A stretch of 32,439 bases of DNA from Hyphomicrobiaceae bacterium (GTDB taxonomy: Bacteria; Pseudomonadota; Alphaproteobacteria; Rhizobiales; Hyphomicrobiaceae). Shown here piece by piece: positions 12,225 through 22,095 of this stretch. Under the pieces are notes generated by a model. That model saw nothing but the letters and a program-made list of their open reading frames with translations. It ran no database searches and was not told where the DNA came from. The position numbers and the translations under genes are program-made. The DNA is taken from contig JAMXLN010000226.1 of assembly GCA_024281145.1 (NCBI GenBank), positions 1 to 32,439 on the forward strand, in the 5' to 3' direction. Each line of letters begins with the position of its first letter. Within the stretch, counting starts at the first letter, position 1.

Positions 12225-13460
12225 CTAGCCGCGGCCGTTCGCGCGGCGCTCTTCGGAGGCCGGGGTGCTGCCCGCCGGCCGACGCGGCTCCTCGACTTTG
12301 ACGGTGACCCCCGGCGCCAGGCGGATCTGGCCGTCGGTGACAACGCGCTCGCCGGGCTTAAGCCCGCCGCTCAGGTAGGCGGTCTGGCCCACAATGCGCT
12401 CGACGATGACCGTGCGGGGGGCGACCGTGTCGTCGGCCCCGATGACCCAGACAATCATGCCCTGCTGCGCTGGCAGGACCGCGGAGGCCGGCACCGCCAG
12501 CATCCCCCGCTTCGTTTCGACGGTGAGGGCCACCTCCGCGGACAACCCCGGCCACAGCACCTCATCGGCGTTCTCGGCGATCACGCGCGCCGTAATGGTG
12601 CCGGTCTGCTTGTCGACCTGGTTGTCCACGAAGCCCAGCGTTCCCTGCACGACCATCGGCTTGGTGCTGCCGCGCACGGTGATGTCGGCCAGAGCTTTGG
12701 CCGTGAGCGCGCGACGCAAGACGCCGAGCTCGTTCTGCGGCACGGCAAAGGTCACCCAGATCGGCTTCGTCTGATTGATGATGACGAGAGGGGCCTCCGC
12801 GTCGACGCCGCGCACCGTGGCGCCGACCTTGGAGGTGAGCGTCCCCGTGCGGCCCGTAATCGGCGCGCGGATCGTGAGATAATCCAGCTGGGTGCGCTGC
12901 GACTCAAGCAAAGCGATGCCGGCGGCGATGCTGGCCTTGAGCCCCTCCACGGCGTAGCGTGCCTGATCGACAGAGGCCTCAGTCACGATCTTCTTGCCGA
13001 TCAGCGCCTCGCGTCGCAGCAGCGTCGCTTCGGCGTCCCTGAGGCTCGCCTGGTCCTTGGCTATGCTCGCTTCGGCCTGCGAAATCTGTGCCTTGACCAG
13101 CCGATCGTCGAGACGAAAGAGGACGTCGTTCTCGTTGACGAGATCGCCCTCCTTGAAGAGCACCTCGACAATCTGGCCATCCACGCGCGTCTTGACAGCC
13201 ACGTTGGCAAACGGCTCCACCGTGCCGGGCGCCATCAGGATGACGGGCATGTCGGAGGCGATGACGCTGGCTGCGGTGACGGGAGCCGGCGGACCGCTGC
13301 GGCCCTTGCCCTCGGCCTTCTTGGGCACCGCCTTGGCCGTGTCGGCGGACGGCAAACCAGGGTGCGGAAGGATCGCCAGCGCATAAGCAAGGCCGACGCC
13401 AATGGTCGCGCCGGCCACATAGAGTGCAAACCGCCTGGCTCTCATCGAAGCGAACGCCAC
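12225..13460 (-). CDS. RND efflux periplasmic adaptor (membrane-fusion protein, HlyD family)
   Basis: This 411-residue adaptor has an N-terminal anchor (RRFALYVAGATIGVGLAYAL). The first lipoyl half is VKTRVDGQIVEVLFKEGDLV. An alpha-hairpin rich in Glu/Gln/Arg (about 130-200) follows, then the second lipoyl half (IRAPITGRTGTLTSKVG), a beta-barrel domain, and a membrane-proximal domain ending in GLKPGERVVTDGQIRLAPG. It links the permease to an outer-membrane channel. It is the first gene of the operon, with the permease next. ATG 13445 (MRARRF) is an alternative start. The long proline/alanine/lysine stretch after the anchor may act as a spacer. Its substrate is not visible from the sequence. 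Confidence 0.92.
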   Translation of the reverse strand: MAFASMRARRFALYVAGATIGVGLAYALAILPHPGLPSADTAKAVPKKAEGKGRSGPPAPVTAASVIASDMPVILMAPGTVEPFANVAVKTRVDGQIVEVLFKEGDLVNENDVLFRLDDRLVKAQISQAEASIAKDQASLRDAEATLLRREALIGKKIVTEASVDQARYAVEGLKASIAAGIALLESQRTQLDYLTIRAPITGRTGTLTSKVGATVRGVDAEAPLVIINQTKPIWVTFAVPQNELGVLRRALTAKALADITVRGSTKPMVVQGTLGFVDNQVDKQTGTITARVIAENADEVLWPGLSAEVALTVETKRGMLAVPASAVLPAQQGMIVWVIGADDTVAPRTVIVERIVGQTAYLSGGLKPGERVVTDGQIRLAPGVTVKVEEPRRPAGSTPASEERRANGRG

Positions 13461-13709: not shown

Positions 13710-14219
13710 CTAGAGACGATAGCGGACCTGGTCGGTCCAGAAGCGTTCCAGCCGCACAAGGGCCTTGTTCAGGCCCTTGAAATCCTCATGTGAGATCTGC
13801 GCCACGGTCTCCAGCGAGAGGAGCTGGCGCTCGTAGAGCTTCTGAATAATCAGCCGCGCCCCAAGCCCCTTGGGTGTCAGACTGACCCGGACCGAGCGGC
13901 GATCCTTCTCGGAACGCTTGTAGTGCAGATAGCCCATCTCCACGAGCTTTTTGAGGTTGTAGGAGACGTTGGAGCCCAGATAGTAGCCCCGCGTCTTGAG
14001 CTCGCCAGCGGTGAGCTCATCATCGCCCATGTTGTTGAGCAAGAGCGCCTGAACGCTGTTGATCTCAGCGCCGCCGTGTCGGTCGAACTCGTCCTTGACG
14101 ACATCGAGCAGCAGGCGATGCAGGCGCTCGATCATCCTGAGCGCGTGCAAATACTCGCTGCGAACGCTGCCCTCGCCCGCAGGCGTGCGCAGGCGCACCA
14201 TGTCCAACGCAACACTCAT
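13710..14219 (-). CDS. ldtR: MarR family winged-helix regulator, LdtR-like
   Basis: This 169-residue regulator has the winged-helix core in the middle. INSVQALLLNNMGDDELTAGELKTRGYYLGSNVSYNLKKLVEMGYL covers the helices up to the recognition helix, and RSEKDRRSVRVSLTPKG is the wing. The YYLGSNVSYNLKKLV recognition segment and the SEYLHALRMIERLHRLLLDVVKDEF N-terminal helix match what I know of LdtR, a MarR-type regulator of Rhizobiales (Liberibacter, Sinorhizobium) linked to an L,D-transpeptidase and cell-envelope stress. ATG 14219 is preceded by AGGCAGGGA. It lies upstream of the efflux operon on the same strand with a 249-base gap, so it may control that operon, itself, or distant envelope genes. 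Confidence 0.82.
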   Translation of the reverse strand: MSVALDMVRLRTPAGEGSVRSEYLHALRMIERLHRLLLDVVKDEFDRHGGAEINSVQALLLNNMGDDELTAGELKTRGYYLGSNVSYNLKKLVEMGYLHYKRSEKDRRSVRVSLTPKGLGARLIIQKLYERQLLSLETVAQISHEDFKGLNKALVRLERFWTDQVRYRL

Positions 14220-14486
14220 GGGTCCCTGCCTTAATGCTGTCTGACGCGTTCCGGTTTTCCGGATTGGCGCCAACACTAGGCGAAAGGCGCTAATTTTAAC
14301 TTAAAGCAATGGGTTAACGAACCATGACCCGGGCGCACCCGGCGGCTCTCGACGCCGCGGGGCTCACCTGGCACTCGGGGCGTTCATGAACCCTAAGGGA
14401 GAAGCCAGCACAGCCGCTCCGCCCCGGGGCTCCCTGCAGCGAGCACACCAGAAAAGCCGCTCGCTCCCCCCAAGCCGGCTCATCGC

Positions 14487-15500
14487 TCATCCAACCATAA
14501 ATCCCGCGCCAACGGGATCGTCGCGGTCGATGCACCATCGCGCGGTGCCGATGATGTTGGCCCTGCCCTTGATCGTCGGGCACACCGCGGGCTCTTTGCC
14601 GAGCATGGCCTTGCCGATGAGGCAGCCTTCAAACACGCCAGTGCCGAGCAAGCCCTCCGACTGGATCGGTTGATTGAGCCCCAGTTTGCCGCGCGCATGA
14701 AACATCGCCATCATCGCCGACGTGCCGGTGCCACCGGGAGAGCGGTCGAGCTGCCCCGCGCTAAAGACGTGCACGTTCTTGTAGAAGGCGCCGGGCAGCC
14801 GCCCCTCGTGCCAGAGCGTGACGAAGTTGAGGTTGCTGACGTGGCCCTGTGTTGGATGCTGCAGTTTGCCCTTCTCGCGTAGCATCTCGCGAGCGGCGAG
14901 GCCGATCTGCGACAGCTGCGGAGCGTTGTCGGGGTTGATTTCAAGGCCCCTGCCGCGGATGTCGATGATGCCGAAATAGTTGCCACCCCAAGCCACGTCG
15001 GCGCTCACCCGGCCGAGACCTGGCACATCGAGCGGGATGTCCTGAGCCGCCACGTAGGCCGGCACGTTCTCGAAACGGCACCAGGCCACCCGATCGCCTT
15101 CGTGGGCGACTTCGCTCACAACCGGGCCGGCGGTGGTCTCAAAGCGAATGGTGGTACGCCCATGCTCGGCTTTGGGCACCATGCCCAGCGCCACCATGGC
15201 CATCGACACGGCAATCGTTCCGTGGCCACACATGTGCGAATACTGGGTGCCGTCGACCCAGATCAGACCGGCGTCGAAGCCCGGCTCCGATGGCGGCGTG
15301 AGGAACACGCCGAACATGTCCTTGTGCCCGCGCGGCTCGCGCATCAACGCGGTACGCACCCAGTCGAAGTTTTGCTCCAGGAACCGACGCTTTTCGACAA
15401 TGCTCGACGCTGGCGGGTAGAGAATGCCGGAGTGGATGATGCACGTGGGCTCACCTTCCGTGTGAGTGTAGATCACGTCAAAGGCTATGTTGCAGCGCAT
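14487..15500 (-). CDS. Proline racemase family protein with Cys/Gly active-site pair
   Basis: This 337-residue protein belongs to the proline racemase / 4-hydroxyproline 2-epimerase / trans-3-hydroxy-L-proline dehydratase family. The first catalytic residue is present (C91 in MCGHGTIAV). The second, normally Cys in racemases and epimerases and Thr or Ser in dehydratases, is G256 in DRSPGGTGTSA. A two-base racemisation is then unlikely; loss of water (dehydratase) with one catalytic base, or another substrate, fits better. The start is ATG 15500, preceded by AAGG at a normal distance; the longer frame lacks support. It is divergent from the ABC importer with a 130-base shared promoter region, and the reductase at the end of that operon could take the dehydratase product. 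Confidence 0.85.
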   Translation of the reverse strand: MRCNIAFDVIYTHTEGEPTCIIHSGILYPPASSIVEKRRFLEQNFDWVRTALMREPRGHKDMFGVFLTPPSEPGFDAGLIWVDGTQYSHMCGHGTIAVSMAMVALGMVPKAEHGRTTIRFETTAGPVVSEVAHEGDRVAWCRFENVPAYVAAQDIPLDVPGLGRVSADVAWGGNYFGIIDIRGRGLEINPDNAPQLSQIGLAAREMLREKGKLQHPTQGHVSNLNFVTLWHEGRLPGAFYKNVHVFSAGQLDRSPGGTGTSAMMAMFHARGKLGLNQPIQSEGLLGTGVFEGCLIGKAMLGKEPAVCPTIKGRANIIGTARWCIDRDDPVGAGFMVG

Positions 15501-15630: not shown

Positions 15631-16674
15631 ATGACGAGAAATCTCGTGTGGGCCCTGCTCGGGGCGGGCGCCTGTCTGGCGACGGCGAACCCGGCATTGG
15701 CGCAGCAGAGGCTGACGGTGGCCACCTACGGGGGAAACTGGGGCGAGGCGCAAAAGGCCTGCATTCTCGAGCCATTTGCAAAGGCAAGTGGTGTGCAGGT
15801 GGTGCAGGAGATGAGCGTCTCGACCGTCACCTACAACAAACTGAAGCAGCAGAAGGGTAATCCTTCGATCGATATCGCCTGGATCGACGGAGGCATCTCC
15901 GAGCTTGCCTCTGCCGACGGCGTGGTGGCCGCGATCGATCCGGCCAAGGTGCCGAACATTGCGGGCCTCATCGACGAAGCGGTTTACAAGACCAAGGATG
16001 GCAAGATTTACGCGCTCAGCACGGGGTTTTATGCGCTCGGCATTGCTTACAACACCAAGGAGCTCAAGGAAGCGCCGCAGTCCTGGTGGGACATTTGGAA
16101 GCCTGAGTATTCAGGCAAAGTGACGCTACCCAGTCCCGTCAACGCGGCGGGCCTACCGTTCTTTGCGCATATCATCACCCTCACCGGTGGGTCGCTCGAC
16201 AATCCCACGTCCGGGGTGGAAAAGCTCAAGACCATCAAGGTGTCGAGCTACTACGACGCATCCGGGGTGGCGCAGGCGGCGCTCCAAAGCGGGGAAGCGG
16301 TCGCGGCGGCTTATTACAATACCGCCGCATGGGCGATTGCAGACAAGGGGCTGCCGATCGCCTTCATCGTGCCCAAAGAAGGAGCACCCTCAGCCGACAT
16401 TCGTGTGCACATCGCAGACGGTACCAAGAATGCCGACGCGGCGCTGCAGTTCGTCAACTATGCAGTTGGGGACGAGGCGATGAATTGCCTCGCCGAGAAG
16501 CTCTATGTCGGCCCGCCAACCAAGCACTACAAGATTTCCGATCAGGCCAAGTCGCGCATGCCCTGGGGCGCCAGCGGCAACGTGAAGAACCTCGCCATTC
16601 CCAACTGGGATGCCCTTAATGCCAAGCGTGCAGCGCTGACCGAGGTCTGGAATCGACAGATTGCCGGGAAGTAG
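15631..16674 (+). CDS. ABC transporter substrate-binding protein (spermidine/putrescine type)
   Basis: This 347-residue periplasmic binding protein has a signal peptide (MTRNLVWALLGAGACLATANPALA, cut before QQR). The mature protein starts RLTVATYGGNWGEAQKA, typical of the PotD/PotF-like cluster, and DIAWIDGG plus WWDIWKPEYSGKVTLP are family landmarks. It delivers a small organic amine or acid to the importer encoded next. The strong ribosome site GGAGGAG supports ATG 15631; the longer upstream frame has no such site. Relatives bind polyamines, but also proline betaine-like or other amines, so with a racemase-family enzyme and an OCD-family reductase around it, an imino acid or hydroxyproline derivative is a reasonable guess. 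Confidence 0.9.
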   Translation: MTRNLVWALLGAGACLATANPALAQQRLTVATYGGNWGEAQKACILEPFAKASGVQVVQEMSVSTVTYNKLKQQKGNPSIDIAWIDGGISELASADGVVAAIDPAKVPNIAGLIDEAVYKTKDGKIYALSTGFYALGIAYNTKELKEAPQSWWDIWKPEYSGKVTLPSPVNAAGLPFFAHIITLTGGSLDNPTSGVEKLKTIKVSSYYDASGVAQAALQSGEAVAAAYYNTAAWAIADKGLPIAFIVPKEGAPSADIRVHIADGTKNADAALQFVNYAVGDEAMNCLAEKLYVGPPTKHYKISDQAKSRMPWGASGNVKNLAIPNWDALNAKRAALTEVWNRQIAGK

Positions 16675-16713: not shown

Positions 16714-17778
16714 ATGACGCTCGATGTGGTTGTCGTCGACAGCCTCGTCAAAAGATATGGGCCGGTGACGGCCCTTGCCGGAGTATCTCTCGCCGTTCGC
16801 AGGGGCGAATTCATTGCGCTCTTGGGACCAAGCGGCTGTGGAAAGACAACGCTCCTGCGCGCCGTCGCCGGCTTCGTAGAGCCGACCTCGGGCGAAATTC
16901 GCATCAACGGCCGCCCGATGCGAGGCGTCCCGCCGAACTTGCGGCCCGTCAACACGGTCTTCCAGCAGTTCGCGCTCTTCCCCCACATGACCGCCAGCGA
17001 AAACATTGCCTTCGGCCCGCGCCGGCAGCGCCTTTCCCCGGCAGAGATCCATGGCCGTGTAAGGGATGCGCTCGCCATGGTCGGTCTCGAAGGGCTCGGA
17101 GCGCGCTACCCTCGCGAGCTCTCGGGGGGCCAGCAGCAGCGCGTGGCGCTGGCTCGCGCCATCGTCAACCGACCGGAGGTGCTGTTGCTCGATGAGCCGC
17201 TCGGTGCGCTGGATCTGAAGCTTAGAAAGCGCATGCAGGTGGAGCTCAAACGGCTTCACCAACAGCTTGGCATGACCTTTCTCTTCGTCACGCATGACCA
17301 AGAGGAAGCGCTTGCCATGGCCGACCGCATCGCGGTGATGCGTGAGGGGGTCATCGTGCAGCTCGGCAGCGGAGCCCAGATCTATAGAAATCCCGCGACA
17401 CGCTATGTGGCCGATTTTATCGGCGAGGCAAACCTCATCACCTGCCAGGTGGATGCCAGCGGTGCGGTGCAAATTACTCCCAATGGCCCCGGCGGCCCCT
17501 ATCGCATGCCGGCGAATGGCACGCAGCAAGTGTCGTTGATGGTGCGGCCGGAAAGCGTAAGGCTCGGGTGCGGGGCCGGCGCGGATCACGTCGCCCTGCC
17601 GGCAACGCTCAAGGACAAAGCATTCGTCGGATCCACCTACCGGCTCTATCTTGTACTTGCCGACGGACAGGAGATCGCCGCCGAGCCTGGCTGCGGCCGT
17701 GAGGTGGATGAGCTTGCGCCGGGCGCGGCGGTCTGGGTGCACTGGCACAAGGATGCCGCGCGCCTGCTTGAGGATTGA
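16714..17778 (+). CDS. ABC transporter ATP-binding protein (PotA-like)
   Basis: This 354-residue ATPase has all motifs intact: Walker A GPSGCGKTT (38-46), signature LSGGQQQRVALARAI (from about 136), Walker B VLLLDEPLGALD and the switch His in FLFVTHDQEEALA. A C-terminal TOBE domain (about 240-354; LMVRPESVRLG) is typical of PotA/FbpC-type importers and may sense substrate or regulatory ligands. It works with the two permeases that follow. It lies 39 bases after the binding-protein gene and 36 bases before the first permease, within one operon. Confidence 0.93.
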   Translation: MTLDVVVVDSLVKRYGPVTALAGVSLAVRRGEFIALLGPSGCGKTTLLRAVAGFVEPTSGEIRINGRPMRGVPPNLRPVNTVFQQFALFPHMTASENIAFGPRRQRLSPAEIHGRVRDALAMVGLEGLGARYPRELSGGQQQRVALARAIVNRPEVLLLDEPLGALDLKLRKRMQVELKRLHQQLGMTFLFVTHDQEEALAMADRIAVMREGVIVQLGSGAQIYRNPATRYVADFIGEANLITCQVDASGAVQITPNGPGGPYRMPANGTQQVSLMVRPESVRLGCGAGADHVALPATLKDKAFVGSTYRLYLVLADGQEIAAEPGCGREVDELAPGAAVWVHWHKDAARLLED

Positions 17779-17814: not shown

Positions 17815-18657
17815 ATGCGGTTCACCTCGGCCAATGCGGCGTTTTTGATGCTGGGGCCGATCGCGTTCTTTGTGCTGTTTTTTCTTGCGCCGTTCGGGCT
17901 GCTGATCGCGGAAAGCTTCATGCGCCCCCAAGGTGGCGTGACGCTCAGCAACTACATATCCGTGTTGAGCGACGGCTATTACTGGAACGCACTCATCAAC
18001 ACGCTGCTGATCTCGCTGTGGGTGACGGTGGTTTCGTTTCTTCTTGGCTATCCGCTCGCCTACTTCATCGTCTTCCACGTGCGCAGGCCATGGGGACGGC
18101 GGCTCATCTATGTGCTGCTGATGACGCCACTTTTCACAAGCAACATCGTGCGCGCGTTCGGTTGGATCGTGATCCTGGGCCGGAGAGGGATCGTCAATTC
18201 GAGCCTGCTCGCGCTTGGATTGATCAATACCCCGCTCGATATCCTCTACGGTAAGCTCAGCATCATCATCGGGCTCGCCTACATTTTGCTACCGATCATG
18301 GCGCTTTCCATTTGCAGTGTGCTGCAGACCGTTGATCGTTCGCTCATCGAGGCAGCGCGCGATCTGGGCGCTCGACCATCGCGAGCCTTCATTGCCGTGA
18401 CCTTTCCCTTGAGCCTTCCCGGCGTAGTCGCCGGCTCGATCATCGTCTTTGCCTTGAGTGTCAGCGCCTACGTGATCCCAAGTATCCTCAGCGGGGGGCG
18501 CGAGATGGTGATGCCGATCCTGATCTTTCAGCAGTACGCGGCAACGTTCCGCCCCGACATCGGTGCCACCTTGTCGGTCGTTCTGCTCGCGGTGACGCTG
18601 CTCCTGATCGGGAGTTATCTCATTTTGTTCGAACGACGCTTGCGGGCGGTAGGGTGA
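17815..18657 (+). CDS. ABC transporter permease (PotB-like)
   Basis: This 280-residue inner-membrane permease has about six hydrophobic helices. The cytoplasmic EAA loop is EAARDLGARPSRAFIAVTFP, which docks onto the ATPase. The first helix is FLMLGPIAFFVLFFLAPFGL. It is the first of two permeases of the polyamine-type importer. AGGCGGAAAGAG precedes ATG 17815. The next gene begins only four bases after its stop, so the two are translationally coupled. Confidence 0.92.
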   Translation: MRFTSANAAFLMLGPIAFFVLFFLAPFGLLIAESFMRPQGGVTLSNYISVLSDGYYWNALINTLLISLWVTVVSFLLGYPLAYFIVFHVRRPWGRRLIYVLLMTPLFTSNIVRAFGWIVILGRRGIVNSSLLALGLINTPLDILYGKLSIIIGLAYILLPIMALSICSVLQTVDRSLIEAARDLGARPSRAFIAVTFPLSLPGVVAGSIIVFALSVSAYVIPSILSGGREMVMPILIFQQYAATFRPDIGATLSVVLLAVTLLLIGSYLILFERRLRAVG

Positions 18658-18661
18658 GCCG

Positions 18662-19489
18662 ATGCACGCCGATCTTGCTGATCGCCTTGGCCGTATCTTC
18701 ATCGCCGCGGTGAGCACAATTGCGATGCTCTACTTGGCGCTCCCACTGTTGGTTGTGATCGCCATATCGTTCACGGCCACCGAGTATCTGAGATTTCCTC
18801 CGCAGGGACTGACGCTGCGCTGGTATTGGCAGGTCGTGAGCGATCCGACGTTCGTCGAAGCGTTCGTCGTTTCCGGCGAACTTGCGGTGGCCGCGACCGC
18901 AACCGCGCTTATATTAGGTGTGCCTGCCGCTCTTGTTTTCGCTCGCAAGCGTTTTCCCTTGAGCCAGGTCCTAAGTGCGCTCTTCTTGTCGCCGCTGGTG
19001 CTGCCAACTATCGTGCTCGGTGTGGCGATTTTGCAGTATGCCTCCGCGCTTGGGTTTGCCCGCAGCTTCTTGGCGCTATTCGTTGGCCATGTTGTTCTGG
19101 TTACCCCTTACGTCATTCGAACCTCGCTCGCGTCGCTGTCGGGCATGCAGCCGGCACACGAGGAGGCGGCACAGGACTTGGGCGCAACGCCATTACAGAC
19201 CTTTTTTCTCATTACCTTGCCGCAGATCAAGGCCGGCGTCATTGCCGGTGCACTTTTTGCCTTCATCAATTCTTGGATCAATGTCGAGGTCAGCATCTTC
19301 AACTCGACCGCCCAGCTCGTGACCATCCCGGTCAAACTTTTCAACTACATTCAGTTCAACATCGATCCGACGCTTGCGGCGGTGTCGGCGGCCACGATCT
19401 ATATTGCCATCCTGGTCGTGGTGGCGATCGATTTGGCGGTCGGCATCGAGAAGGCCGCAGCCAACACGGGCCCAGAAGCGCGCCCGTAA
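18662..19489 (+). CDS. ABC transporter permease (PotC-like)
   Basis: This 275-residue second permease has about six helices and an EAA loop EAAQDLGATPLQTFFLITLP. The pair forms the translocation channel as a heterodimer. The family resemblance is to PotC of spermidine/putrescine systems (FTATEYLRFPPQGLTLRWYWQV near the N-terminus is characteristic). The ribosome site lies inside the end of the previous gene. Its stop is 19 bases before the GTG start of the reductase, which is therefore part of the same operon. Confidence 0.92.
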   Translation: MHADLADRLGRIFIAAVSTIAMLYLALPLLVVIAISFTATEYLRFPPQGLTLRWYWQVVSDPTFVEAFVVSGELAVAATATALILGVPAALVFARKRFPLSQVLSALFLSPLVLPTIVLGVAILQYASALGFARSFLALFVGHVVLVTPYVIRTSLASLSGMQPAHEEAAQDLGATPLQTFFLITLPQIKAGVIAGALFAFINSWINVEVSIFNSTAQLVTIPVKLFNYIQFNIDPTLAAVSAATIYIAILVVVAIDLAVGIEKAAANTGPEARP

Positions 19490-19508: not shown

Positions 19509-20492
19509 GTGGCCAAAGCAGAGCCCATCCTTTATCTGAGCAACCGCGACCTGGAGCAGCTCGGCCTCTCGTTGGGCGAGATCGTGCCGATCCTCGAGGC
19601 AATGTTTCGCCGCAAGGCCAGCGGTGACACTGCGCAGCCACCCAAAATCTTCTTCCACCGCGGTGGGCCACGCTTCTATAGCTCGATGGTCAGCTCTGCG
19701 CCCGGATTGGGTTATGCGGGCTGCAAGTGGCAAAGCGGCGATCCGGAAAACCCAGGGCGCGGACTTGCCTATATCCAAGGCTTGTTCATCCTGTCGGAGG
19801 ACGCGACGGGACAGCCGGTCGCGATCATGGATTCCAAATGGGTGACGGGCAACCGCACGGCGGCGGCTTCGGCCGTGGCGGCTAAGCACCTGGCGCGCCG
19901 GGATGCGCGCACGATCGCCATCCTCGGGTGCGGGCTGCAGGGCCGCAAGAATCTGGAGGCGCTGAAGGCCGTGCTGCCATCGCTTGTGCGCTGCCAGGCC
20001 TATGACGTAGTTGCCGAACGCGAGGCCGCATTCGTGCGCGAGACGCACGAGCGATGGGGGGTCGTGGTAGTGGGAGCCGGTAGCGCCGAGCGGGCCGTGC
20101 GCGGCGCCGACATCGTCATTACGGCTGGGCCGATCGAGGACCACCGGCGCGCAACGCTGATGCCGGAATGGCTGGCTCCTGGGACCCTCACCATCGCGCT
20201 CGATTACGATTCTTACGTGACCGATGCGGCCATCGCCGCGGCAGATCTGGTGCTCACCGACGATCGCGGGCAGATCGAGGATGCGCGCCAGCGCGAGGGT
20301 AAGTTCACGGGCGTGACGCGTATCGACGCGGAGCTCGCCGACCTTCTTACCACTGGCCAAGGTCGGCGCACGACAGAAGATCAGCGCATCCTCGTGTTCA
20401 ATCTCGGGATCGCGCTTGAAGACCTGGCGACCGGCGTGGAGATCCTGAACCGCGCGCGCAGGAAGAAGGTCGGCATCCTGCTCCCTGCCTGA
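19509..20492 (+). CDS. Ornithine cyclodeaminase / pyrroline-2-carboxylate reductase family protein
   Basis: This 327-residue protein starts at GTG 19509, after AGGAGAAGG at a good distance. The Rossmann motif AILGCGLQGRKNLEAL binds NAD(P). KWQSGDPENPGRGL carries the Lys that contacts the substrate carboxylate, and ALDYDSYVTD holds the candidate catalytic Asp. Members include ornithine cyclodeaminase, alanine dehydrogenase, ketimine reductase and 1-pyrroline-2-carboxylate reductase. The last produces proline from the product of trans-3-hydroxyproline dehydratase, which is the racemase-family activity suggested nearby. It is the final gene of the ABC operon and ends two bases before the stop of the convergent FMN oxidase gene. 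Confidence 0.85.
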   Translation: MAKAEPILYLSNRDLEQLGLSLGEIVPILEAMFRRKASGDTAQPPKIFFHRGGPRFYSSMVSSAPGLGYAGCKWQSGDPENPGRGLAYIQGLFILSEDATGQPVAIMDSKWVTGNRTAAASAVAAKHLARRDARTIAILGCGLQGRKNLEALKAVLPSLVRCQAYDVVAEREAAFVRETHERWGVVVVGAGSAERAVRGADIVITAGPIEDHRRATLMPEWLAPGTLTIALDYDSYVTDAAIAAADLVLTDDRGQIEDARQREGKFTGVTRIDAELADLLTTGQGRRTTEDQRILVFNLGIALEDLATGVEILNRARRKKVGILLPA

Positions 20493-20494
20493 GC

Positions 20495-21664
20495 TCAGTC
20501 GCGCTTGTTCGCGTTGGTGCGCGGCGGCAGTGCTGCCAGCCGTTCCTTCACAACAGGAAAGGGATTGAAGATGTGCGGCGGATCGAGCGCATCCGTCGCG
20601 ACCACATGATTGCGGCTCAATTCGCTAAGATTGGTTACGCCCAGAAGCCCCATAGCGATGATGATCTCCTCCTCAAGGATCTCCATCATCCGTACGAGAC
20701 CTGCCTCGCCGCCCGCCGCCAGCGCCCAGCACTGGAGCCGGCCAATGCATACGGCGCGCGCACCAAGGGCGATGGCCTTGAGGACGTCGGTGCCGCGATA
20801 AATGCCACCATCCATGATCACCGCGGTGCGTCCCGAAACCGCGTCGACAATTTCCGGCACCACTTCGATTGATCCGGGTGCGCAATCGAGCTGTCGACCG
20901 CCGTGGTTGGAAATATAGATTGCGCTTGCGCCGTGCTCGACGGCAGCCCGTGCATCCTCGGCGGTCGAAATGCCCTTCAAAATGATCGGCAGCGACGAAC
21001 GCCGACGGATCCGCTCGATCGTTTTCCACGTCAAGCGCGCGGTGACCATGCGCGCTTCAGCGGCCGCAACCGCCTTCGAGCTGGCCCCTTCGCGCAGCAC
21101 CTTCTGGGTTGCGGCATAGGTCGTGGACTTGCTGCCACGAGAGCGAAATCCATTGATGAGGTCGCGCTCACGCCGGGAGTAATAGGGAGCCTCCGTCACG
21201 ACCGCAATGGCGAGACAGCCGGCAGCAACAGCCTCGTCGACGGCTGCATCGAGCCAGGCCTGATCGCCTCGCACATAAAGACCGAGGATCAAGGGATGAT
21301 CGACTTTAGAGCGCACGATTTTGAGCGGCGGATCGGCGAACGTGCTGTAGATGAGCAGGGACCCATACGTCTTGCACGCACCGGCCACGCTGACCGCCGC
21401 AGCCGGGTCGATAAGGGCGAGCGAACCCACCGGCGCCATCATGACGGGCAGCGCAAGCTTGTGGCCAAGAAACGTGGTGGAGGTATCGATGCGGGCGACG
21501 TCGTTCAAGACACGTGCACGGAAGGCCAGCCGGTCGAGCCCGTGACGATTGCGCCGCAGCGTGACCTCAGACTCGGTGCCGCCGTTGACGAAGTCCCACA
21601 CCGCAGGCTCCATCTTGGCGTGCGCGATGAGCAGCATCTCCTGCAGCGTCGTGAATTCAGTCAT
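20495..21664 (-). CDS. FMN-dependent 2-hydroxy-acid oxidase/dehydrogenase family protein
   Basis: This 389-residue protein has the (S)-2-hydroxy-acid oxidase fold (lactate dehydrogenase LldD, glycolate oxidase, mandelate dehydrogenase). The catalytic base is H254 in SNHGGRQLD, with R257 next to it, K230 in LKGIS near FMN, and the phosphate loop DGGIYRGTDVLKAIALGA. Two usual motifs differ: the QLY segment reads GLYVRGD, and the TVDxP segment reads VVTEAPYYSRRERD. It would oxidise a 2-hydroxy acid to the 2-oxo acid. ATG 21664 is preceded by AGGAAAGGGA. It converges with the reductase gene with almost no gap and is divergent from the small dimeric-barrel gene, so it may serve the same pathway under separate control. 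Confidence 0.88.
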   Translation of the reverse strand: MTEFTTLQEMLLIAHAKMEPAVWDFVNGGTESEVTLRRNRHGLDRLAFRARVLNDVARIDTSTTFLGHKLALPVMMAPVGSLALIDPAAAVSVAGACKTYGSLLIYSTFADPPLKIVRSKVDHPLILGLYVRGDQAWLDAAVDEAVAAGCLAIAVVTEAPYYSRRERDLINGFRSRGSKSTTYAATQKVLREGASSKAVAAAEARMVTARLTWKTIERIRRRSSLPIILKGISTAEDARAAVEHGASAIYISNHGGRQLDCAPGSIEVVPEIVDAVSGRTAVIMDGGIYRGTDVLKAIALGARAVCIGRLQCWALAAGGEAGLVRMMEILEEEIIIAMGLLGVTNLSELSRNHVVATDALDPPHIFNPFPVVKERLAALPPRTNANKRD

Positions 21665-21804
21665 GGTTCCCTTTCCTATCCGGCCGCAGATCGACGCACT
21701 TTCGCGCATGCAAGGACTGCGCGCCCTGGCACGAACAAAGTCTTGCCCAAGCGCGGACCACCCGTCAGTCTTGCGAACAAGAGCAAATCTGACAGGAGTT
21801 GGCG
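21665..21804. promoter_or_regulatory. Divergent promoter region of the FMN oxidase and the small barrel protein
   Basis: This 140-base space lies between two outward-pointing starts. The minus-strand ribosome site AGGAAAGGGA and the plus-strand CAGGAG (21794-21799) mark both starts. No obvious -35/-10 pair or palindrome was seen. Confidence 0.45.
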
Positions 21805-22095
21805 ATGTATGCACGCGTAATGACGTCAAGTCCCAAGCCCGGCTCCGCCGCCGCCGCGATTGCGGAATGGCCGCAGCACATCAGCGCCTTCAAGGGCAAA
21901 GGACTTGTTGCCGGCTACCTGTTCTTCGATCGCAGCCACAACCAATTCCTGTCGATCACAATCTGGGAGAGCGAGGACGCGCAAAGGCGCAATGCCACGA
22001 GCCCCGAGCAGATCCATGGTCGTGCGCAGTTCATGCAACATCTGACGGGTGCGCCGGTGCCCAGCACATATGAGGTCGCTGCGGTGGTAGAGTAG
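21805..22095 (+). CDS. Small dimeric alpha-beta barrel (ABM-like) protein
   Basis: This 96-residue protein starts at ATG 21805 after CAGGAG. The pattern ARVMTSSPKPGSAAAAIAEW, a central FKGKGLVAGYLFFDRSHNQFLSITIWESEDAQRRNATS, and a final strand STYEVAAVVE fit the ferredoxin-like dimeric barrel of the antibiotic-biosynthesis monooxygenase / DUF-type superfamily. These proteins often act as small cofactor-free oxygenases or isomerases or as stress proteins. No catalytic residue can be assigned. It is divergent from the FMN oxidase, hinting at a shared stimulus. Confidence 0.65.
   Translation: MYARVMTSSPKPGSAAAAIAEWPQHISAFKGKGLVAGYLFFDRSHNQFLSITIWESEDAQRRNATSPEQIHGRAQFMQHLTGAPVPSTYEVAAVVE

Follow-up and report, generated by a model that had tools for sequence, protein, structure and literature searches.

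Which reaction can be expected of a proline racemase superfamily protein that pairs Cys with Gly at its two catalytic positions, when the known pairs, Cys/Cys, Ser/Cys, Cys/Thr and Ser/Thr, map onto racemases, epimerases and dehydratases? The question is raised by a gene in a stretch of 32,439 nucleotides from a Hyphomicrobiaceae bacterium (contig JAMXLN010000226.1), called the window below. The open reading frame runs on the minus strand from an ATG at 15500 to a stop at 14487 and encodes 337 aa. Residues of the window protein are numbered from this ATG, from which the codons below were counted.

14487–15500, minus strand: proline racemase superfamily protein of the Cys91/Gly256 type, 337 aa (Pfam, residue alignment, AlphaFold2 and fold matches)
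15228–15230, minus strand: codon of Cys91, the first catalytic position (alignment)
14733–14735, minus strand: GGT codon of Gly256, the second catalytic position, which is Cys or Thr in characterised members (alignment)
14769–14771, minus strand: codon of His244, present in 83/83 clade members and 0/60 others (alignment)

The window protein is a full member of the superfamily. PF05544 (Pro_racemase) matches residues 9–334 with 309.6 bits against a curated cut-off of 27, and the AlphaFold2 model, with a mean pLDDT of 90.5 (about 60 in the block around residues 51–60, adjoining Phe63), together with Foldseek shows the two-domain DapF-like fold; Foldseek ranks 1–38 are all superfamily structures, with TM scores (by query length) of up to 0.92. 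Cys91 lies within MCGHG and Gly256 within DRSPGGTGT, as an earlier note on this DNA had read them. Both motifs align without gaps to solved proline racemases and a dehydratase, DRSPGGTG standing against DRSP[C/T]GTG of the references. The alignment that would have overturned that reading, with a neighbouring Cys, Ser or Thr realigned into position 256, was looked for and is ruled out by the gap-free motif, while a sequencing error or frameshift at Gly256 is ruled out by the relatives, all of which carry Gly above 41% identity. The same note took the second position to be Cys or Thr/Ser in known members; this holds for Cys and Thr and fails for Ser, as the Ser variants (Ser/Cys and Ser/Thr) change the first position, both in the text of PMC4113996 and in our alignment.

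None of the six matching NCBIfam superfamily models claims the protein, which falls far below every cut-off. Specifically, it scores 293.9 bits against 556 for the ProR equivalog NF010576, 244.5, 177.6 and 147.2 bits against 376, 450 and 442 for the 4-hydroxyproline 2-epimerase models, and 266.4 and 193 bits against 540 and 550 for the dehydratase models. At the catalytic positions it has Cys91 and Gly256 in place of the two opposed Cys of ProR or the Cys/Cys or Ser/Cys pair of 4-hydroxyproline 2-epimerase. The Phe residues at ProR ligand sites 1 and 5 are present (Phe63 and Phe246, in 83/83 clade members); the meaning of these sites comes from the text of PMC4364671, and their transfer from TlProR numbering onto the window protein is our own mapping.

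The gene belongs to a coherent, uncharacterised branch of the proline racemase family that is scattered over the proteobacteria. A scan of genome contigs confirmed 127 loci, and all of the best 80 that were kept carry Cys/Gly at 69–83% identity to the window protein; the genera with clade members include Achromobacter, Bosea, Ancylobacter, Azospirillum, Pseudomonas, Cupriavidus, Pandoraea and Paraburkholderia. Cys/Gly likewise occurs in four loci at 52–57% identity (L110–L113) and in L004 at about 42% (41.7%, the lowest). At 36% identity or less, with alignments shorter than 270 columns set aside, the sequences have other residue pairs, except L023 (32%), a member of a second Cys/Gly family. 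The distribution is patchy. Two of 60 relatives scanned hold clade members (G011 and G038) and one a second-family member (G057), and four other clade members were found in 385 genomes of the class at E ≤ 1e-100. Six other genomes of the window's genus gave no superfamily match at E ≤ 0.001, 398 genomes of the phylum gave none at E ≤ 1e-68 besides the window's own genome, and five genomes of the order of G173 gave no new clade member.

The count of Cys/Gly members that the earlier note had proposed gives 83 distinct proteins in one clade, plus the independent second family. We compared these 83 with 60 other superfamily proteins (Cys/Cys 35, Ser/Cys 13, Ser/Thr 7, Cys/Thr 4, Cys/Gly 1), duplicates removed: an earlier set of 88 rows held five genes under two locus ids, recognised by their contigs and coordinates, and taking out these and one double of L145 left 83 and 60. 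As the clade rows were chosen by their Cys/Gly pair (L145 and its double excluded), 83/83 is circular for Cys91 and Gly256 and informative for the other residues; that the pair is fixed in the clade follows from the identity gap and the tree. His93, Asp252, Phe63, Phe246, His220, Thr228, His244, Met263, Asp83 and Gly283 are each present in 83/83 clade members, and a one-residue insertion near 288 in 82/83. Outside the clade, His244 and Met263 occur in 0/60 superfamily proteins and Thr228 in 1/61 (an earlier count). Before the last doubles were removed, Cys20 was Cys in 85/88 rows and Cys293 in 76/88, and both were considered and set aside as stand-ins for the lost Cys, a role that Cys20 could conceivably still have.

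The absence of one catalytic residue might mean that catalysis has been lost and that the protein now serves in binding or regulation. We consider this very improbable: Cys91, His93, Asp252 and the surrounding motifs are kept across 39–99.7% pairwise identity in the clade, and the gene keeps its place at the end of an importer operon throughout most of the clade.

The reading that we rank first, tentatively and at less than even chances, is that the window protein, with its proline racemase fold, is catalytically active in catabolism and performs a one-base elimination on an imported substrate. A proline-like or other L-amino or imino acid would be taken up by the importer, its carboxylate and nitrogen would be gripped as in proline racemase, and Cys91 alone would take off the alpha-proton. 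Without an acid/base on the opposite face the carbanion would not be inverted, and a beta-substituent such as a hydroxyl would be expelled, in an elimination of the dehydratase or ammonia-lyase type. The enamine or imine product would pass into central metabolism, spontaneously or through household enzymes; in the window's lineage, a reductase of the ornithine cyclodeaminase (OCD) family in the importer operon may accept the imine.

Several observations bear on this reading. In a Ser/Cys epimerase, the Ser counterpart of Cys91 is labelled the base for the L-substrate (figure legend in PMC4113996). Since Cys91 is the only remaining thiol of the pair and occupies this position, a one-base reaction or a different substrate, as the earlier note proposed, is the natural inference from a pair that is real and fixed in the clade; the link which that note drew to a reductase is weak, as set out below. 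Elimination by a member that misses the second base has precedent in the family: the trans-3-hydroxyproline dehydratases carry Cys/Thr or Ser/Thr, and the Thr is oriented non-catalytically in the solved Ser/Thr enzyme, according to the same paper. His93 and Asp252, kept in 83/83, and the occurrence of Cys91/Gly256 in all relatives above 41% identity also argue for it. Against it, the pocket has Phe63 and Phe246 as in proline racemases, whereas the Cys/Thr dehydratases have Tyr63, and the invariant His244 may supply a second acid/base. Additionally, the equivalent Cys104 of the human dehydratase can form a disulphide with Vmax essentially unchanged, as described in the text of PMC9309405, which leaves some doubt whether even the first Cys acts as the only base.

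To place the clade, we built a tree of 76 rows with IQ-TREE under LG+C20, including 16 clade representatives. All 16 fall on one side of a branch supported at 100/97, so that the Cys/Gly clade is monophyletic. Its sister group is formed by three Bacillota proline racemase rows, two of them near-identical (98/82), and the T. litoralis racemase falls outside this grouping; all four proline racemase rows and 6R76 are flagged for odd composition, which calls for caution on the sister relation. The four Cys/Thr rows make up a separate clade (100/99) that does not include the window protein. Cys/Gly requires two origins on the tree, the second being L145, which lies inside the Cys/Cys epimerases.

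The proline racemases of Bacillota (Acetoanaerobium sticklandii, 7PB3, and Ligilactobacillus) share with the clade the fold, Phe63/Phe246 and the MCGH and DRSP motifs. The clade differs from them in having Gly for the second Cys, in His244, Thr228 and Met263, in the insertion near 288, and in an importer cassette in place of the D-proline reductase genes. The window protein is 38% identical to 7PB3, while the basal member L004 is 50% identical to it, yet has Gly256, His244, Thr228 and Met263; because even this member carries all four, they were set in place early. His220, unlike these four, is also found in the Acetoanaerobium enzyme.

These residues are the core of a second reading, in which the protein remains a racemase or epimerase with two bases: His244 has taken over from position 256 as the second acid/base, the resulting Cys/His pair inverts an amino acid other than proline, and Thr228 and Met263 replace a Glu/Lys pair of proline racemase. 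In the AlphaFold2 model, strands 224–231 and 238–245 lie ahead of helix 257–269, and Phe246 and residue 226 match ligand sites 5 and 4 in the text of PMC4364671. His244 stands two residues before Phe246 and near site 4, and by strand alternation His244 and Thr228 should face the ligand-site side in the model. The restriction of His244, Thr228 and Met263 to the clade (in all 83 members, with Thr228 once elsewhere) and the sister relation to proline racemases, one row of which, the Ligilactobacillus gene L147, adjoins prdA and prdB, are in keeping with inversion. So is the clade locus L141: the gene immediately upstream of the racemase-like one, in the same orientation, encodes a FAD enzyme that among the NCBIfam models matches D-amino acid dehydrogenase best, at a score below cut-off; this suggests a D-product and speaks against elimination. 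On the other hand, L147 and the Acetoanaerobium racemase carry Glu228 and Lys263 at the positions of Thr228 and Met263 of the clade, so the change at the three positions may amount to an exchange of packing partners and not to a new base. Besides, L145 of the independent second family has Val244, so His244 is no general companion of Gly256. We rank Cys/His inversion second, as a possibility less likely than one-base elimination.

The genes on the other side of the start codon bear on the substrate. The window gene is divergent from an ABC importer, and the importer operon ends in an added OCD-family gene, an arrangement that the earlier note had also described.

15631–16674, plus strand: ABC importer solute-binding protein of the polyamine/2-aminoethylphosphonate type (SBP_bac_8, 88.3 bits)
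16714–17778, plus strand: ABC importer ATPase, PotA-like (TIGR01187 potA, 358.2 bits against a cut-off of 355.6)
17815–18657, plus strand: ABC importer permease 1, PotB-like (BPD_transp_1, 54.2 bits; PotB the best model, below cut-off)
18662–19489, plus strand: ABC importer permease 2, PotC-like (BPD_transp_1, 47.8 bits; PotC the best model, below cut-off)
19509–20492, plus strand: ornithine cyclodeaminase/mu-crystallin family oxidoreductase, closing the importer operon (Pfam, 163.5 bits in a longer frame)
20495–21829, minus strand: FMN-dependent 2-hydroxy acid dehydrogenase family protein, convergent (FMN_dh, 361.8 bits)

The start of the binding protein was set, in our reading, at the ATG ahead of a signal peptide. 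The protein falls far below the cut-offs of the PhnS2 and PotD models; its best PDB relative is the ABC binding protein 4edp (97 bits), and weaker matches include spermidine/putrescine, mannopine, iron, pyridoxal-phosphate and GABA-sensor proteins. Reading the substrate off the binding protein was rejected, as relatives of such mixed ligands give no assignment. The OCD-family gene has a GTG start 19 bases past the permease. The earlier note called its product a pyrroline-2-carboxylate-reductase-type protein; the family assignment holds, whereas the best NCBIfam models are alanine dehydrogenase and SbnB rather than the reductases, and the protein is below every NCBIfam cut-off (61.2 bits against 400 for LhpI, in the longer frame; 97.1 against 322 for PRK06141; 76.2 against 266 for PRK07340). 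The FMN-dependent dehydrogenase may belong to the pathway.

We next counted neighbours by tblastn within the flanks of the 77 clade loci with at least 5.5 kb upstream. In 74/77, the Cys/Gly gene comes after those for the solute-binding protein, the ATPase and both permeases, and the gene of a GlxA-type regulator runs divergently. The exceptions are L030, which has the window's arrangement, L067, with the regulator and no importer, and L039, with neither. Homologues of the OCD-family and FMN-dependent genes occur in 1/77 loci each, both times in L030. This locus, taken to be one contig with L144 because their lengths agree, represents the one other genome found with both genes in the window's arrangement, at 73.5% identity for the OCD-family gene and 72% for the FMN gene. 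No other enzyme family is common to most clade loci. Genes in unannotated loci were called by a GC3 heuristic that yields false frames, and neighbour families 6 and 12 (20 and 12 loci), which overlie the second permease on the opposite strand, are probably such frames. In Bosea sp. F3-2, a RidA-family gene (L150:4404–4910) adjoins the GlxA regulator of the cassette. RidA clears enamine and imine products, and its presence there would suit an elimination reaction.

For one-base elimination this cassette cuts both ways. An enzyme that stands as the single shared one in the usual cassette fits an elimination whose product can do without a partner enzyme of its own. Both the window and L030/L144 have an OCD-family gene within the importer operon, and the distant relative L143 has one, at 42% identity, in its own operon; the rarity of such a gene, missing from nearly all other clade loci, counts against one-base elimination and also weakens the reductase link of the earlier note. 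Taking the OCD neighbour as proof of a hydroxyproline pathway was rejected for the same rarity and for its scores below the NCBIfam cut-offs.

Elimination could in principle take the form already known, with the window protein turning over trans-3-hydroxy-L-proline as a dehydratase. The Cys/Thr dehydratases (the litoralis enzyme 6R76 and human L3HYPDH, 7QPO) have the same fold, a Cys as the sole thiol of the pair and a possible OCD partner, which the window shares, and OCD-family members beside other superfamily clusters reduce pyrroline-2-carboxylate (text of PMC4113996). The window protein nevertheless lies outside their clade and has Phe63, while the four aligned Cys/Thr rows carry Tyr63, Cys244 and Arg263 besides the Thr at the second position; its dehydratase model scores of 266.4 and 193 bits reach about half or less of the cut-offs, and the OCD-family gene is rare in the clade.

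Paralogues in the same genomes bear on this point as well. At least one further full-length superfamily gene is present in 13 of 20 genomes reached through clade loci, Cys/Cys epimerase-like in seven, Cys/Thr in four and Ser/Thr in one; these residue counts leave out the second gene of G817 and nine copies taken as known Cys/Gly loci. Bosea lupini, a Methylobacterium MAG and Aquamicrobium hold Cys/Cys, Cys/Thr and Cys/Gly members together, and six further genomes with a clade member (G011, G038, G173, G179, G276 and G442) all have other superfamily genes. Where such Cys/Cys, Cys/Thr or Ser/Thr paralogues coexist with it, the Cys/Gly enzyme is therefore unlikely to repeat their reactions; this applies to trans-3-hydroxyproline dehydration in the 5/20 genomes with Cys/Thr or Ser/Thr. 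The Cys/Gly member is alone in 7/20 genomes and in the window's draft genome, where the window gene is the sole superfamily gene found, so that the dehydratase role is possible there. Altogether we regard dehydration of trans-3-hydroxy-L-proline as unlikely. One further superfamily member, L181 (G808, the genome of L076, Pseudomonas sp. 14P_8.1_Bac3), has HCGHG in place of MCGHG and a Cys/Thr pair, at 37% identity to the nearest query used.

The deeper branches of the clade have richer neighbourhoods, which do not agree on one pathway. In L139, L140 and L143 (Alphaproteobacteria, genomes of two orders), a polyamine-type importer beside the Cys/Gly enzyme is accompanied by AtuA-like, DUF4387, family III CoA-transferase, lipid-transfer-type thiolase and DUF35/ChsH2-like genes. 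The thiolase and DUF35 parts recur in L141, a short contig, and L142 has acyl-CoA dehydrogenase, MBL-fold, SDR and AMP-ligase genes. The CoA-transferase/thiolase/DUF35 clusters do not follow from a hydroxyproline-type dehydration and thus count against one-base elimination of that kind. About 4.5 kb from the Cys/Gly gene of L139 lies an enolase-superfamily gene (L139:2870–3970) whose best NCBIfam model is muconate cycloisomerase and whose second-best is cis-3-hydroxy-L-proline dehydratase (136.1 bits against a cut-off of 500), and near it a pipecolate-oxidase-like FAD gene, below cut-off.

A third reading concerns the pocket rather than the bases, and it draws on the second Cys/Gly family. 4-Hydroxyproline 2-epimerases (Cys/Cys or Ser/Cys) have the same fold and DRSP motif as the window protein, the MCGHG motif being common to the Cys/Cys types; they differ in their two acid/base residues and, in most Cys/Cys rows, in Ser63, His226 and Tyr246. 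Their known operons contain DAAO, DHDPS and aldehyde dehydrogenase genes (text of PMC4113996). The second family arose inside the Cys/Cys epimerases and has six distinct members: L145 (identical with L200), L201, L202, L203, L166 and the Rhizobium etli locus L220. All six carry PMCGAG and DRSPGGTGTSARM, so that Gly stands in place of the second Cys and Ala in place of the nitrogen-binding His. The family shares with the window clade the Cys/Gly pair and an adjoining ABC importer, and differs in its separate origin, the exchange of His93 for Ala and a betaine-type importer; its member L145 has Val244 and Arg263, unlike the window clade.

The R. etli member, WP_011428697.1 (L220:9004–10002, equal to Rhizobium etli CFN 42 p42f 443586–444584), is annotated as 4-hydroxyproline epimerase and scores 581.2 bits against the cut-off of 376 despite the missing second Cys; it is possibly misannotated. 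At least one tested second-family member thus bears an epimerase annotation above a curated cut-off without one of the residues that epimerisation is thought to need. The gene order there is GntR, DHDPS-type, aldehyde dehydrogenase, FAD oxidoreductase, betaine-type ABC importer, Cys/Gly gene, GlxA regulator, reductase and Rieske oxygenase, with putA further on. The DHDPS, aldehyde dehydrogenase and FAD enzyme genes and the betaine-type importer are also present in 5/5 other second-family loci, the GlxA-type regulator in 4/6 (R. etli and 3/5 others) and the full Rieske/reductase pair in 2/6 (L220 and L145), with a partial Rieske match in L221. The nearest match of the R. etli Rieske protein and of its reductase is glycine betaine monooxygenase, at scores below cut-off, and the regulators next to the two Cys/Gly families are similar to GbdR (209.3 and 195.5 bits against a cut-off of 480). 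Against the background of hydroxyproline betaine catabolism, we suggest that the second family may act on that betaine, the two small residues giving room for the N-methyl groups.

Carried over to the window clade, Gly256 would free space for an N- or ring substituent, and the main event would be a reshaped pocket for an N-substituted or betaine-like substrate. The betaine-type importer and hydroxyproline-type genes in 6/6 second-family loci, the Rieske/reductase genes near L220 and L145 and the GbdR-like regulators of both families point this way. The window clade, in contrast, retains His93 and Asp252, and the binding protein of the window is of the polyamine type. The ligands of GlxA-type regulators are diverse, and in the second family the regulator was not found in two of the six loci and the full Rieske/reductase pair in four. 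A substrate change as the main event is doubtful, and we place it third, just behind Cys/His inversion.

A broader reading joins parts of these. The active site would derive from a Cys/Cys proline racemase whose second thiol is gone and in which His244, Thr228 and Met263 have been installed, and it would carry out either a one-thiol or a Cys/His two-base reaction on an imported amino acid, neither of them described with this residue pair in the literature searched; Cys/Gly would have arisen twice, both times beside ABC importer operons. We hold this joint account as tentative, somewhat below one-base elimination. The literature searched, which included PMC4113996, PMC4364671, PMC9309405, PMC8142540 and PMC4417235, showed no Cys/Gly pair in the text covered. 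The text of PMC4113996 does state that some superfamily clusters miss one or both Cys, and clusters 6, 10 and 13 are not named in its main text. Judged from sequence, the window clade may well perform a reaction other than those of the known members. The fixation of Cys/Gly in two independent lineages amounts to a natural experiment on the number of bases that the fold needs, and the clade points to an unassigned nutrient pathway in such bacteria as Achromobacter, Azospirillum, Bosea and Pseudomonas.

In the window, the next gene downstream of the Cys/Gly gene (13710–14276, minus strand) encodes a MarR-family regulator that scores 250.2 against the NCBIfam LdtR cut-off of 250, and positions 12225–13460 on the same strand encode an RND efflux periplasmic adaptor subunit (TIGR01730, 232.9 bits).
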